Of a DNA stretch of 39,533 bases, positions 6,248 to 29,668 are shown piece after piece. The position numbers and the translations under genes were made by a program. How positions within the stretch are numbered: position 1 is the stretch's first letter; the number at the start of each line of letters is the position of its first letter. Source of the DNA: a virus; the IMG/VR virus record IMGVR_UViG_3300021602_000422, positions 1-39,533 of that record; one strand, written 5' to 3'. A model generated the notes under the pieces. That model did not search any database. It was not told the DNA's origin and was given only the letters and a program-made list of their open reading frames with translations.

Positions 6248-7209
6248 TTTTATGTTCCGTTGCAACAAGAGGTAGATATGAAACTACCTTACCTATGACT
6301 ATTATGGCTATACTCAATCAAACAAAAAAGATTGATAAACTCGTGATATTCGACGATAATGATAATCCAATCGATGTAAGAAGTATAAAGATATATCAAT
6401 ATCTATTTGAGATAATGAGGGAAAAGAATATAGATTGGGAATGGGTCTATGCTCTTAAGAAAGGCCAACATTTTAGTCACGATATGGCCAATAAAATGGG
6501 ATTCGAATGGGTATTACGAATAGACGATGACTGTATGCCTGAACCCAATGTATTAGAAACACTATTTTCTTATATAGACGATAGTGTAGGTGCAGTAGGT
6601 GGCGCTATATTAACTCCCCCTTTCACTCCTTGCATAGGAGTAACAGGTAAGATAGAAAATATAGACGATGAACCAAGCATACAATGGGATTATATAAAAG
6701 AAGTAAAAGAAGTAGATCATTTGCACTGTTCTTTTTTATATAGGGCAGGGATACAGGATTATAATTTAGCATTATCCCGTGTTGCCTACAGAGAAGAAAC
6801 ATTATTTACGTATGGATTAAAGAAACGCGGTTATCGTATTCTTGTTGTGCCGAATGCAAATATATGGCATCTGAAAGATAGATTTGGCGGCGTAAGAACA
6901 GAACAGAAAGCATTATTTGATGCAGACGAAGTTATTTTTAGAAATACATTATCTTTTGATAAAAGGCAAATAGTAGTGCTCGATAATGGTATAGGTGATC
7001 ACATTGTAGCGAAACATTTTATTTCTAGACTGAAAGATCCAGTTATATTCTCCTGTTATCCGGAAGTTGTACCAGGAAGAAGTATACAAGAAGCTAAGAA
7101 TTTATTCGGAAGTTTAGATGAATACAACATATATCGTAAAATGGACGAATGGAAGTGGACCGGATCATTACTCTCTGCATTTGAAAAAATGTATGGGCTC
7201 GATAAATGA
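6244..7209 (+). CDS. GT2-like glycosyltransferase with C-terminal GT9 N-terminal-half domain
   Basis: 321 residues from the ATG at 6244, which overlaps the upstream stop by 4 nt; a GTG 12 nt upstream is less likely because every junction in this operon uses ATGA. Residues 1-230 are GT-A with an IDDD motif (94-96) for nucleotide-sugar/metal binding and a late H-L-K-D segment. Residues ~240-321 (VVLDNGIGDHIVAKHF) resemble the N-terminal Rossmann half of GT9 heptosyltransferases, not a GT2 tail. The matching C-terminal half of a GT9 is encoded separately at 7886. Acceptor and donor are unknown. Confidence 0.8.
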   Translation: MILCSVATRGRYETTLPMTIMAILNQTKKIDKLVIFDDNDNPIDVRSIKIYQYLFEIMREKNIDWEWVYALKKGQHFSHDMANKMGFEWVLRIDDDCMPEPNVLETLFSYIDDSVGAVGGAILTPPFTPCIGVTGKIENIDDEPSIQWDYIKEVKEVDHLHCSFLYRAGIQDYNLALSRVAYREETLFTYGLKKRGYRILVVPNANIWHLKDRFGGVRTEQKALFDADEVIFRNTLSFDKRQIVVLDNGIGDHIVAKHFISRLKDPVIFSCYPEVVPGRSIQEAKNLFGSLDEYNIYRKMDEWKWTGSLLSAFEKMYGLDK

Positions 7210-7889
7210 AAGTATCAATTGTAATACCGGCATACCGGCCGGCCGCATTATTAGAAGGTTGCTTAAGAGGAATAATAGATAATACTAATTTATCTGATAT
7301 AGAAATTATCGTAGTCTGCAATGGGAGCGACATAGAAAGTGCCCAATTAGTTGTAAATTTAGGCGAACCGTTCAAACTCGTATGGTGCAGAGATGCTATA
7401 GGGTTTACTAAAGCTACTAATATGGGCCTTAAATTGGCAACTGGCGATTATGTAATTATTATGAATACTGATGCACATTTGTTAAATTATTATGATAAAG
7501 ATGCATGGCTCAATAAATTAATAGAACCATTTAAGGATAGTAAGATAGGCATAGCGGGCGTAGGAATAATGTGGACAGAGTTCGGAATGTTTTTACCTTT
7601 CTTCTGTACAGCAATAAGAAGATCTTTGTTTGATGAGATCGGCATATTAGATGAAAGATTTAGTCCGGGCTATTCCGAAGATGCAGATTTTTGCTATCGT
7701 GCAGTGAAAGCAGGGCATAACATAGTTCAGGTCGATAATATACATGTAAATGAAAACAATCCGGCTATGTCTGTCACCGATTTCCCCATACACCATATGG
7801 GCGAACAATCCTTTGTCGATAAGACTGAGAGGCTAGCACACATAGAAAAGAATTACGCATTACTTAAAGAAAAGTGGACAAAAAAATGA
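7206..7889 (+). CDS. GT2 glycosyltransferase
   Basis: 227 residues, a single GT-A domain beginning VSIVIPAYRP, with NTDAH at about residues 87-91 in the DxD position and EDADF near 158. It is closely related in layout to the modules of the 1312-residue protein (same LIEPFKD and DERFSPGYSEDADF style), so it probably arose from the same duplicated module. It is joined by ATGA overlaps on both sides and so is translationally coupled. Confidence 0.88.
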   Translation: MKVSIVIPAYRPAALLEGCLRGIIDNTNLSDIEIIVVCNGSDIESAQLVVNLGEPFKLVWCRDAIGFTKATNMGLKLATGDYVIIMNTDAHLLNYYDKDAWLNKLIEPFKDSKIGIAGVGIMWTEFGMFLPFFCTAIRRSLFDEIGILDERFSPGYSEDADFCYRAVKAGHNIVQVDNIHVNENNPAMSVTDFPIHHMGEQSFVDKTERLAHIEKNYALLKEKWTKK

Positions 7890-8410: not shown

Positions 8411-11400
8411 ATGTCAATTAATGTATGCGGCAATATCATATTGCCAAACTCGAATGGTAATGCGCGTGGTGAAGTTGCCATAGGAGTAGGTGTTGGACTT
8501 GCAACAAGCACTGGCACGAATAATCTTGCTATTGGCTGTTCGGCTTTGTCGGCCAACACTACTGGTAGTAACAACGTTGCTATCGGTTGCTGTGCCTTGT
8601 ACGCATCAAACGCCACTGGTAATAACATCGCCATTGGTGCTGACGCTGGTAAGTCAATTACAACCGGCACTGATAACACTGTCATTGGCTCCTTGGTTGG
8701 TGCAGCAGGCTGCGTCTGTACTCTCCTTCTAGGTGCAGGTACTTGTGAACGGATTAGGGTTGACAACGGTGGTCTGTACGTCAATAACGCAGGCCCTTAC
8801 CCGACGTCAAGTAGTCCGAGTCTTACAGCCACGTACAACAACCTAGGGATTGGCACTGGCGCATTGGCGTCCGTTACGACAGGCGCTAACAATCTTGCGA
8901 TTGGCATCGGTGCTCTGTGCAAGAATACTACTGGCATCAATAACCTAGCCATAGGATACCTGGCGCTCAACAAAAATACCACAGGCAGTAATAACTTCGC
9001 CCAAGGATACCAGGCGCTCACATCTAACACCTCTGGCAGTAATAACTTCGCCTCCGGATGCCTGGCGCTCAACAAAAATACCTCTGGCAACTATAACACC
9101 GCTATAGGATGCCAGGCGCTCTACAACAACACCACCGGCAGTCATAACTTCGCCCAAGGATACCAGGCGCTCTACAACAACATCACAGGTTATAATAACC
9201 TAGCCATAGGATGCCAGGCGCTCTACAACAACACCACCGGCAGTCATAACTTCGCCTCCGGATACCTGGCGCTCTACAACAACACCACAGGTTATAATAA
9301 CCTAGCCATAGGATACCAGGCGCTCTACAACAACACCACAGGTTATAATAACCTAGCCATAGGATACCAGGCGCTCTACTGCAACACCACAGGCAGTAAT
9401 AACTTCGCCCAAGGATGCCAGGCGCTCTACGGCAACACTACAGGCAGTAATAACACCGCCCAAGGATTCCAGGCGCTCAACAAAAATACCACAGGCAGTA
9501 ATAACTTCGCCCAAGGATGCCAGGCGCTCTACAACAACACCACCGGCAGTCATAACTTCGCCCAAGGATACCAGGCGCTCAACAAAAATACCACCGGCTG
9601 TAATAACTTCGCCCAAGGATGCCAGGCGCTCTATGGCAACACCACCGGCAGGCACAACTTCGCCTCCGGATACCTGGCGCTCAACAAAAATACTACAGGC
9701 ACTGATAACTTCGCCCAAGGCTACCTGGCGCTCTACGCCAACACCACCGGCAGTCAAAACACCGCCATAGGACACAGTGCGCTCTACTGCAACACCACAG
9801 GCAGTAATAACTTCGCCCAAGGATGCCAGGCGCTCTACAGCAACACTACAGGCAGTAATAACACCGCCATAGGCTACTTTGCGCTCTACTGCAACACCAC
9901 AGGCAGTAATAACTTCGCCCAAGGATGCCAGGCGCTCTGCAGCAACACTACAGGCAGTAATAACACCGCCATAGGATACTGGGCGCTCACATATAACACC
10001 TCTGGCAGTAACAACACCGCCCAAGGATTCCAGGCACTCAAATGCAACACCACTGGCAGTAATAACTTCGCCCAAGGATACAAGGCGCTCTACTACAACA
10101 CCACCGGCAGTAATAACACCGCCCAAGGATACAATGCGCTCTACTGCAACACCTCTGGCAGTAACAACTTCGCCCAAGGAAACTCGGCGCTCAACAAAAA
10201 TACCACCGGCTGTAATAACTTCGCCCAAGGATTCCAGGCACTCAAATGCAACACCACTGGCAGTAATAACACCGCCATAGGATGCCAGGCGCTCTACAAC
10301 AACATCACCGGCAGTAATAACACCGCCCAAGGATACAATGCGCTCTACTGCAACACCTCTGGCAGCTATAACACCGCTATAGGATGCAAGGCGCTCTACA
10401 ACAACACCTACGGCATTAGTAACTTCGCCCAAGGCTACTTTGCGCTCTGCAGCAACACTACAGGCAGTAATAACTTCGCCTCCGGATACCAGGCGCTCAA
10501 CAAAAATACCACCGGCTGTAATAACACCGCCCAAGGCTTCCAGGCGCTCTACGCCAACACCACCGGCAGTAATAACACCGCCCAAGGATACCGGGCGCTC
10601 TTCTACAACATCACCGGCAGTAATAACACCGCCCAAGGATACAATGCGCTCTACTGCAACACCGGCAGTAATAACACCGCCCAAGGATTCCAGGCGCTCT
10701 ACTACAACACCGGCATCAATAACCTAGCCATAGGATACCGGGCGCTCTACAGCAATACCACAGGCAGTAATAACTTCGCCCAAGGATGCCAGGCGCTCTA
10801 CAACAACACCACAGGCTGTAATAACTTCGCCCAAGGATGCCAGGCGCTCTACAACAACACCTACGGCTGCGGCAACACCGCGATAGGTTATGGTGCTTTG
10901 TGCAAAAATACCACAGGCTGTTATAACACCGCTCAAGGAAACAGGGCGCTCTACAGAAATACCACAGGCAGTAATAACTTCGCCTCCGGATCCCAGGCGC
11001 TCTACGGCAACACTACAGGCAGTAATAACACCGCCATAGGATACCGGGCGCTCTACAACAACACCACAGGCTGTAATAACTTCGCCCAAGGATGCCAGGC
11101 GCTCTACAGCAACACCTCAGGCTATAATAACTTCGCCCAAGGATACAAGGCGCTCTACGGCAACACTACAGGCACTGATAACATCGCTATTGGTTGTTGT
11201 GCTGGATACACCGTTAATGGCGGTTCAAATAATATCCTTATAGGCGGCTGCGCTCTCCCATTAGCAGCAGCCTGCTCCAATACCATTACTCTTGGTAACG
11301 CCAGCATAGCGACTATCCGTGCCCAAGTAACTAGCATTACGGCGCTATCTGACGCACGTGACAAGAAGGACATTGTTGACATCCCACTCGGGCTGGACTT

Positions 11401-27664: not shown

Positions 27665-28366
27665 ATGAAAACACAACGCAAAATTTTAGTAGTAGATGAC
27701 GATCCAGTAGTAGGTAAGAGCTTTGAACGTGTATTGACCAGCAAAGGTTATGCAGTTATTAATTGCCATAGTGGCGAAGAGGCACTTGCTAAATTAAAAA
27801 CAGAAGAATACGATGCAGTATTTACTGATTTGAAGATGCCGGGTATGGATGGTATTGAAGTTGCTACGCAAGTTAAGGCAAACCAACCCTGGATGCCCGT
27901 TGTAATCGTAACAGGTTATGGTTCTCCGGTATACGAAGAACGTGCTGCTAATATCGGTGTATCGGACTTTATGCGTAAGCCACTCTCACCAGAAATGATC
28001 GAGGAGAGTGCAGAAAGAGCAATGAGTCAAAAAGAAGCTATCGTAGAAGCTTTTATTCAAGAGATTGCAGCGGTAGATGTAGTGGCGCCGACAGCAGCTG
28101 AAGAGCCGCGCTGGAAAGACGTAGCATTATTTATGGCAGCACCATTTATTGGTTTGTTATATGCAATGTTCTTACCGTTGGTCGGTTTAGGTATGCTGGC
28201 TATGGTTGCATATAAAGCTTTTGCGAAAACAAAAGCATTCACTACAGTTAAGAATGTAGGCTTATTTATTGCTTCTCCATTTATCGGTTTAGCATATGCA
28301 ATAACTCTTCCGTTTATCGGGATTGCTATGTTGGCTTATACAGGTTATAAAGCTGCAACAAAATGA
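27665..28366 (+). CDS. Response-regulator receiver domain fused to two membrane-hairpin repeats
   Basis: 233 residues. Residues 1-125 are a CheY-like receiver with all key residues: acidic pair (VVDDDP), phospho-acceptor Asp in FTDLKMPGMDG, conserved Thr in VIVTGYG and Lys in MRKPLS. After a linker come two tandem ~45-residue repeats with the same hydrophobic pattern, each opening with AAPFIGLLYAM- or ASPFIGLAYAI-type residues and ending in an aromatic/basic K-A segment, likely two membrane hairpins. AAAGGAG Shine-Dalgarno 6-7 nt upstream. Likely bacterial in origin; response regulators are rare in phages. It may intercept phosphoryl signals at the membrane. No DNA-binding or enzymatic output domain. 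Confidence 0.85.
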   Translation: MKTQRKILVVDDDPVVGKSFERVLTSKGYAVINCHSGEEALAKLKTEEYDAVFTDLKMPGMDGIEVATQVKANQPWMPVVIVTGYGSPVYEERAANIGVSDFMRKPLSPEMIEESAERAMSQKEAIVEAFIQEIAAVDVVAPTAAEEPRWKDVALFMAAPFIGLLYAMFLPLVGLGMLAMVAYKAFAKTKAFTTVKNVGLFIASPFIGLAYAITLPFIGIAMLAYTGYKAATK

Positions 28367-28478: not shown

Positions 28479-28516
28479 AACAATTAGGTAAATAGCTTCA
28501 ATTATAGGGGATGAAT

Positions 28517-28873
28517 ATGAGCGAATATTGGGGCTATCATTTAATGCTTGACACAGCAGGGTGTAACGAAAACATAGCAAGCGCAGGTCAAATAAAGAAA
28601 TTTGTTAAAGAACTTGTGCCAGCAATTGATATGGTTGCACACGGTGAACCTATGATTGAGTATATGCTACCCGGCGATCCTAAACAAGGATTCAGTCTAA
28701 TACAACTTATTGAAACAAGTAATATATGTGCTCACTTTGTCGAACCTAATAGCACAGCATACTTTGATATATTCTCTTGTAAAGAATTTGATCCGCAGAT
28801 TGTGCGTGACATGATTCAAAAATATTTTGCACCAACATCAGTAAAAGAACATTTCCTGCATAGACAGGCTTGA
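28517..28873 (+). CDS. speD: S-adenosylmethionine decarboxylase-like protein
   Basis: 118 residues from ATG 28517, which has AGGGG six nt upstream; an ATG 6 nt earlier sits on the Shine-Dalgarno. WGYHLMLDTAGCN matches the start of class 1 AdoMet decarboxylases. TSNICAH aligns with the processing region, with Ser as the future pyruvoyl residue (preceding residue Thr rather than Glu), His in the catalytic His place, and FSC the catalytic Cys. The family decarboxylates AdoMet to supply aminopropyl groups for spermidine; phage copies are known, including in marine T4-like phages. Polyamines neutralise packaged DNA. Activity is likely but not certain given the altered cleavage site. Confidence 0.75.
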   Translation: MSEYWGYHLMLDTAGCNENIASAGQIKKFVKELVPAIDMVAHGEPMIEYMLPGDPKQGFSLIQLIETSNICAHFVEPNSTAYFDIFSCKEFDPQIVRDMIQKYFAPTSVKEHFLHRQA

Positions 28874-28946: not shown

Positions 28947-29022
28947 GCAACTTTAGCAAATGTGGTCATTGCGCTGGCGTGAAGTCCCAGACAAACAGGT
29001 TCGATCCCTGTAGGTTGCACCA
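28947..29022 (+). tRNA. tRNA-Phe(GAA)
   Basis: Acceptor GCAACTT/AGGTTGC, D stem GCAA/TTGC, anticodon CTGG/CCAG extended by a C-C mismatch with loop GTGAAGT, T stem ACAGG/CCTGT with TTCGATC, CCA encoded. The loop edges (G32, T38) are atypical. Confidence 0.75.
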
Positions 29023-29083
29023 TACATAGTACACTTTTAGTAGCTACCTACTACATATTTTGACAGCATTTTGCGGTAAATAT

Positions 29084-29091: not shown

Positions 29092-29113
29092 GGCACAAAG
29101 GAAGTATTTAAAC

Positions 29114-29584
29114 ATGAAAAAACATTTTATTTTAGCAGCCGTAATTGCTGCTGCGGCATTATTGGGGTGTCACGAAGCTAAAGCTGATACAAAGGCATTT
29201 GATCAAGTTACTCAAGACAGCCTCGGAACATATAATCCGTTGGGTGGTGCATGGATTTACAAAGGCAATGTGCAGGGTACATTCGATAATATTTTTACCT
29301 TTCATACCAATCAAGATTTGAATTTAGAAGCTTCGTTTGGTTCAACATGGGGTACACTTAATTTTCAAAGTTCGATCGACAGCCACACGCTTACTGACAA
29401 CTATGGTGTGTTACATCTGACTGCAGGCGATCATACATTCGATGTGCATGGAGATTCGGGATTATATGGTTCGGGATACAATGCTAAGATCTTAGTTACG
29501 CCTGTGCCAGAGCCGGAAGGTTGGGCAATGATGCTTGCAGGATTAGGATTATTCGGGTTTGTTGCCCGTCGAAAAACAAAATAA
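29114..29584 (+). CDS. PEP-CTERM-sorted exported protein
   Basis: 156 residues from ATG 29114 (AGGAAG upstream; in-frame codons before it overlap the promoter). N-terminus MKKHFILAAVIAAAALLGC is a signal peptide with a lipobox-like LLGC and also a possible AKAD type I site. The middle is a Gly/Thr/Phe-rich beta domain of about 100 residues. The C-terminus PVPEPEGWAMMLAGLGLFGFVARRK is a textbook PEP-CTERM signal (VPEP, hydrophobic helix, Arg-rich end), recognised by exosortase for sorting and cell-surface or exopolysaccharide attachment. No exosortase gene is in the window, so host enzymes would be used. Rare in a phage; probably taken from the host. Confidence 0.88.
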   Translation: MKKHFILAAVIAAAALLGCHEAKADTKAFDQVTQDSLGTYNPLGGAWIYKGNVQGTFDNIFTFHTNQDLNLEASFGSTWGTLNFQSSIDSHTLTDNYGVLHLTAGDHTFDVHGDSGLYGSGYNAKILVTPVPEPEGWAMMLAGLGLFGFVARRKTK

Positions 29585-29668
29585 GCCCCGGTGATGGAAC
29601 GGTTTACATAGCGGTCTAAGAAGCCGTCCCCGAAAGGGTTGCGAGTTCGAATCTCGCCCAGGGCACCA
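29585..29668 (+). tRNA. tRNA-Leu(AAG)
   Basis: Class II. Acceptor GCCCCGG/CCAGGGC (one mismatch), anticodon GCGGT/GCCGT with loop CTAAGAA, variable arm CCC/GGG, T stem GCGAG/CTCGC with TTCGAAT, CCA encoded. It begins directly after the PEP-CTERM stop. A34 in a Leu tRNA is unusual in bacteria. Confidence 0.82.

Follow-up and report, generated by a model that had tools for sequence, protein, structure and literature searches.

We found that a tailed phage of the IMG/VR collection encodes a PEP-CTERM protein, and we read it, with a probability of about 0.6, as a phage-owned exosortase substrate for which the host pathway provides display, either on infected cells or within the EPS. The sequence analysed, hereafter the window, is a stretch of 39,533 nucleotides (virus record IMGVR_UViG_3300021602_000422, classed as linear). 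It is a fragment of a tailed phage, with tail-fibre genes, glycosyltransferases, HNH endonuclease genes and 30 tRNAs predicted by ARAGORN. The PEP-CTERM tag is used by certain bacteria to address their own proteins to the cell surface or slime. Since the phage product bears this address tag, phages probably place a protein of their own at these sites. A second copy emerged from a scan of 2.9 million virus contigs with the pattern PEPE..[WY]AM..LAGLG, which yielded 14 contigs; one of them, G011 (also L012; IMGVR_UViG_3300021602_000471, 44.5 kb), carries a full-length homologue that is 63% identical.

The gene lies on the plus strand (29114..29584), with an ATG start at 29114 and a stop at 29584, and encodes 156 amino acids; its annotation draws on profile matches, the G011 homologue and purifying selection. 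A ribosome-binding-site-like GGAAG is found 9 nt 5′ of the ATG (29100..29104, plus strand), and an upstream TTG at 29060, included as a start in the list of the ORF finder, was judged less likely. As read from the sequence, residues 1–24 form a signal peptide (29114..29185, plus strand; cleavage at AKA|D), the N-terminus being MKKHFILAAVIAAAALLGCHEAKA|DT, and by inspection the window and G011 copies both possess one. Residues 25–130 (29186..29503, plus strand) make up an ectodomain that a low-confidence AlphaFold model predicts to be beta-rich. The C-terminus of the protein is VPEPEGWAMMLAGLGLFGFVARRKTK, and the PEP-CTERM sorting tail (29504..29575, plus strand) consists of VPEPEGW, a hydrophobic helix and RRK. 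When all six reading frames of the record were searched, TIGR02595 matched at exactly 29504..29575 with 22.3 bits (E 1.4e-5; cut-off 16 bits), while the same model gave no match in 14 control genomes; the protein also scored 32.9 bits (E 6e-8) against PF07589, whose cut-off is 20.7 bits. Having the PEP motif, the hydrophobic helix and the basic end, with both curated cut-offs exceeded, the product is a PEP-CTERM protein, as the first-pass annotation had proposed along with the signal peptide. The "Arg-rich end" of that annotation corresponds to RRKTK, which is basic and in the expected place, but short.

The AlphaFold model, built from two input sequences (mean pLDDT 57, low confidence), contains an N-terminal helix, mid-protein strands and a C-terminal helix at residues 136–155; a second structure model, likewise from two sequences, had a mean pLDDT of 53. 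A Foldseek search with the former returned scattered beta proteins at TM 0.2–0.4 and was discarded as evidence, and a sequence comparison with solved structures gave a best match at E 0.13, the rest being worse. Within the signal peptide of the window copy, residues 16–19 (29159–29170) read LLGC, resembling a lipobox, and the G011 homologue is without Cys. This Cys could direct N-terminal lipidation, which is not known to us as usual in the PEP-CTERM class and which we counted against our preferred reading. A signal peptide and a C-terminal helix would by themselves yield the topology of a protein that stays in the inner membrane and faces the periplasm, for instance blocking incoming DNA, with a tail that serves as a plain anchor and escapes exosortase processing. 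We consider this unlikely, as the most conserved segment of the protein is the tail including the PEP motif, for which a plain anchor has no need.

The gene sits inside the tRNA cluster, between tRNA-Phe (gaa; 28947..29022, plus strand, found by ARAGORN and the Rfam search) and tRNA-Leu (aag; 29585..29668, plus strand, found by ARAGORN only and below the Rfam gathering score), the latter beginning 1 base past the PEP-CTERM stop codon. Nearby are an S-adenosylmethionine decarboxylase gene (28511–28873) and a gene with a response-regulator domain (27665–28366), in whose product the receiver domain is followed by a C-terminal half containing a pair of similar hydrophobic segments. Also within the cluster, 32166–32933 encodes a papain-family cysteine protease (PF00112, E 1e-17); G011 contains no counterpart of either the response-regulator gene or the protease gene. 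A palindrome, AGTAG-N4-CTACT (29039..29052), occurs upstream of the PEP-CTERM gene and again upstream of the G011 homologue, its first base preceding the ATG by 75 nt in the window and by 63 nt in G011. In both phages it is preceded by TAGTACA, the whole element spanning 29027–29059 of the window and 7338–7370 of L012. The palindrome is the sole exact match within each contig; allowing one mismatch, the window has two matches, as many as were reached in 17 of 100 shuffles. The shared TAGTACA...AGTAG-N4-CTACT is possibly an operator or a hairpin. A TTGACA and a TATAAT upstream of the gene are 20 nt apart, compared with the 16–18 of the scanner, and promoter-like sites in the scan were at chance level; we claim none.

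G011 is collinear with the window across the tail-fibre and glycosyltransferase block, where corresponding proteins are about 60–91% identical (about 58–62% for the repetitive tail-fibre proteins). Its PEP-CTERM homologue lies within a cluster of 33 tRNAs (ARAGORN): 6 nt lead from the stop codon to the start of an Rfam tRNA (7868 to 7874), and the nearest called upstream tRNA ends at 7203, 210 nt 5′ of the ATG. Just upstream of the homologue, L012 7204–7332 is a tRNA-like, apparently interrupted stretch ending GTTCGATTCCCGGCGTCTCCACCA, called by neither ARAGORN nor Rfam. The AdoMet decarboxylase gene is common to the two phages and several other neighbours differ; by eye, two ORFs at L012 157–859 resemble IscA- and IscU-type iron-sulphur assembly proteins. 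Because a collinear phage contig has a full-length homologue in its own tRNA cluster, the gene is not a host contaminant. Some PEP-CTERM matches in the virus collection may belong to prophages or to flanking host DNA, only some of the high-GC contigs from the pattern scan having been checked; for a gene placed within a phage tRNA cluster in both contigs, host contamination or mis-assembly is hardly credible.

Comparison of the window and G011 copies gave a saturated pS of 0.83, a pN of 0.24 and a pN/pS of 0.29. The sorting tail was the most conserved segment (79% identity, pN/pS 0.16), followed by the ectodomain (64%, pN/pS 0.26), and the signal peptide was the least conserved (24% identity). 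The G011 copy has the higher GC3 (0.44, against 0.33 for the window copy), just as its contig has the higher overall GC (46%, against 39%). Because synonymous sites are saturated, pN/pS is low and GC3 follows the GC of each phage, we read the gene as long-resident and maintained. The homologue at the corresponding site in G011 and purifying selection strongest on the tail bear out the earlier proposal that the phage itself encodes this protein. The surroundings, with HNH endonuclease genes, many tRNAs and neighbours that differ between the window and G011, would also suit host-derived cargo of a recombination-prone tRNA/homing-endonuclease region that is useless to the phage, and PEP-CTERM proteins are common in Burkholderiales. 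We regard such an origin as quite unlikely, given that the gene is intact past synonymous saturation and that no close cellular source was found. Conservation greater in the tail than in the ectodomain, together with an ectodomain that matches nothing known, is what might be expected of a decoy, which would occupy the host exosortase, lower the display of host PEP-CTERM proteins and EPS attachment, and so aid infection or release. The ectodomain is itself conserved, which a decoy would not require, and we hold this explanation to be improbable.

The intact window protein scored 70.7 bits and the G011 copy 64.0 bits against NF038126 (FxDxF family PEP-CTERM, NCBIfam; whole-protein cut-off 50 bits). 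We did not file the ectodomain as FxDxF, because both copies lost the match (none at E<=1) once the tail was removed; another PEP-CTERM protein, L005, also passes this model, with 56.9 bits over residues 124–190, mostly in its C-terminal third. No known family matched the ectodomain without the tail; it thus offers no hint of function, a point against our preferred reading. The best E reached by an ectodomain-only profile was 0.015 among 399 Burkholderiales genomes and 0.021 among 349 from the phylum, such that about 750 genomes gave no cellular homologue, and none was found on plasmids. At this sensitivity, these negative searches suggest that the displayed part is phage-specific, whereas the sorting tag is one that cells have too. 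The first-pass annotation had called for homologues in both phages and host genomes; a full-length one was found in a phage contig, G011, and in the cellular genomes searched the ectodomain had none.

Among 17 contigs with the glycosyltransferase gene of the window, most of them fragments, only G011 had a PEP-CTERM match (1/17), because of which the gene looks accessory in this phage group; we counted this, too, against our preferred reading. Contig G007 (286 kb, with a tail sheath gene) encodes a PEP-CTERM protein scoring 60.5 bits against NF038126, which matched only itself among the virus contigs; its gene has a tRNA on one side and a permuted tmRNA on the other. The permuted tmRNA (Rfam RF04321, 89.3 bits) was located beside the PEP-CTERM gene at L033 1154–1419 (IMGVR_UViG_3300045974_000132, a 286-kb myovirus contig). 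PEP-CTERM proteins of another type (PEPxxWA) were present in contigs L096, L097, L099–L103 and L105–L107, here termed soil-type from our impression of the contigs, and L096 has two in tandem (8700–9407 and 9423–10115). All four soil-contig proteins tested passed TIGR02595, and three passed NF035944 at its cut-off of 35 (L107, 38.7; L096, 35.5 and 36.0), that of L103 falling below it at 32.6. A tail fibre was among the other proteins scanned in L107 and in L103; L107 also has proteins for virion structure and DNA ejection and an endolysin. Because the PEP-CTERM proteins of G007 and of the soil contigs are distinct from that of the window, the number of phage lineages with this trait is three or more. 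A tblastn search of 50,697 phage records gave no credible PEP-CTERM match: the window protein hit isolate phages only by chance-level Staphylococcus matches (E 0.6), and neither a soil-phage protein nor a consensus tail matched any. No near-identical phage genome was found for window positions 1–25000. Such a display strategy was unseen in the phage records searched, and a literature search of titles and abstracts found no paper describing phage-encoded PEP-CTERM proteins. We tentatively suggest, with the odds somewhat against it, that several unrelated groups of uncultured phages, all infecting bacteria with exosortase, display their own proteins on infected cells or in the EPS via the host PEP-CTERM/exosortase pathway as a general strategy.

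No exosortase match at E<=1 was obtained in the window, G011, G007 and five other phage contigs, several of which are fragments. By contrast with these phages, cells with a strong FxDxF-family match usually had the enzyme: among the 399 Burkholderiales genomes such a match (E<=1e-12) was present in 68, of which 64 also gave one to exosortase (Fisher P about 1e-23, genomes counted irrespective of relatedness). On both grounds, the exosortase is most likely supplied by the host. The nearest cellular tail that we found, 81% identical over 27 amino acids, belongs to an Azonexaceae MAG whose genome has two exosortase matches. This family distribution and tail similarity point to a host that is probably an exosortase-bearing betaproteobacterium. 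The first-pass annotation had stated that the host must have an exosortase; its ground for refutation, plausible hosts that lack the enzyme, did not hold at the level of the order, and dependence on a host exosortase is most likely, the host being itself deduced.

We propose that the infected cell would export the protein through Sec, that the helix and basic end at its C-terminus would retain it in the inner membrane, and that the host exosortase would then cut at the PEP motif, so that the beta-rich ectodomain would end up either on the outside of the cell or within the host exopolysaccharide. Once displayed, the protein would most likely benefit the phage by altering the envelope or the EPS of the cell that it infects. 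As to its use, our first guess is superinfection exclusion or receptor masking and our second a change in EPS or aggregation; superinfection exclusion and EPS remodelling are both plausible. The first-pass annotation, which our results support in part, had likewise suggested surface display, perhaps for superinfection exclusion or biofilm change. Published work connects exosortase and PEP-CTERM proteins with flocs, EPS and attachment to surfaces (PMC9850573, PMC12188702, PMC11980579), both EPS and surface attachment being treated in PMC12188702 and PMC9850573. If our reading is true, phages exploit a bacterial pathway of protein sorting and EPS attachment, which would connect infection with the structure of flocs and biofilms where environmental bacteria employ this pathway. 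Exosortases would also gain phage-encoded substrates for study, and any virus contig with a PEP-CTERM gene would hint at an exosortase in the host.

The window protein shares an exosortase tag with PepA (NF033554; Zoogloea and Aquincola), a flocculation-associated protein required for flocs (PMC9850573), but its score of 32.1 bits falls short of the required 80, and it is not a member of that family. Its three-part C-terminal tag recalls that of the MYXO-CTERM substrates of myxosortase, which a membrane protease sorts to the surface (PMC11980579), whereas the window tag lacks the invariant Cys and, at 12.8 bits, stays below the cut-off of 20. With the FxDxF family it has in common its length, signal peptide and PEP-CTERM tail; it differs in being phage-encoded and in owing its NF038126 score to the tail, the FxDxF motif being degenerate in the phage copies, where it reads FDNIF (window) or FNNQY (G011). 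Among the envelope proteins with which phages bring about superinfection exclusion, such as T5 Llp, T4 Imm and Sp, and P22 SieA, we know of none that uses a PEP-CTERM tag. If our guess of superinfection exclusion is right, the window gene would resemble theirs as a phage gene acting at the host envelope, a likeness for which we claim no sequence relation.
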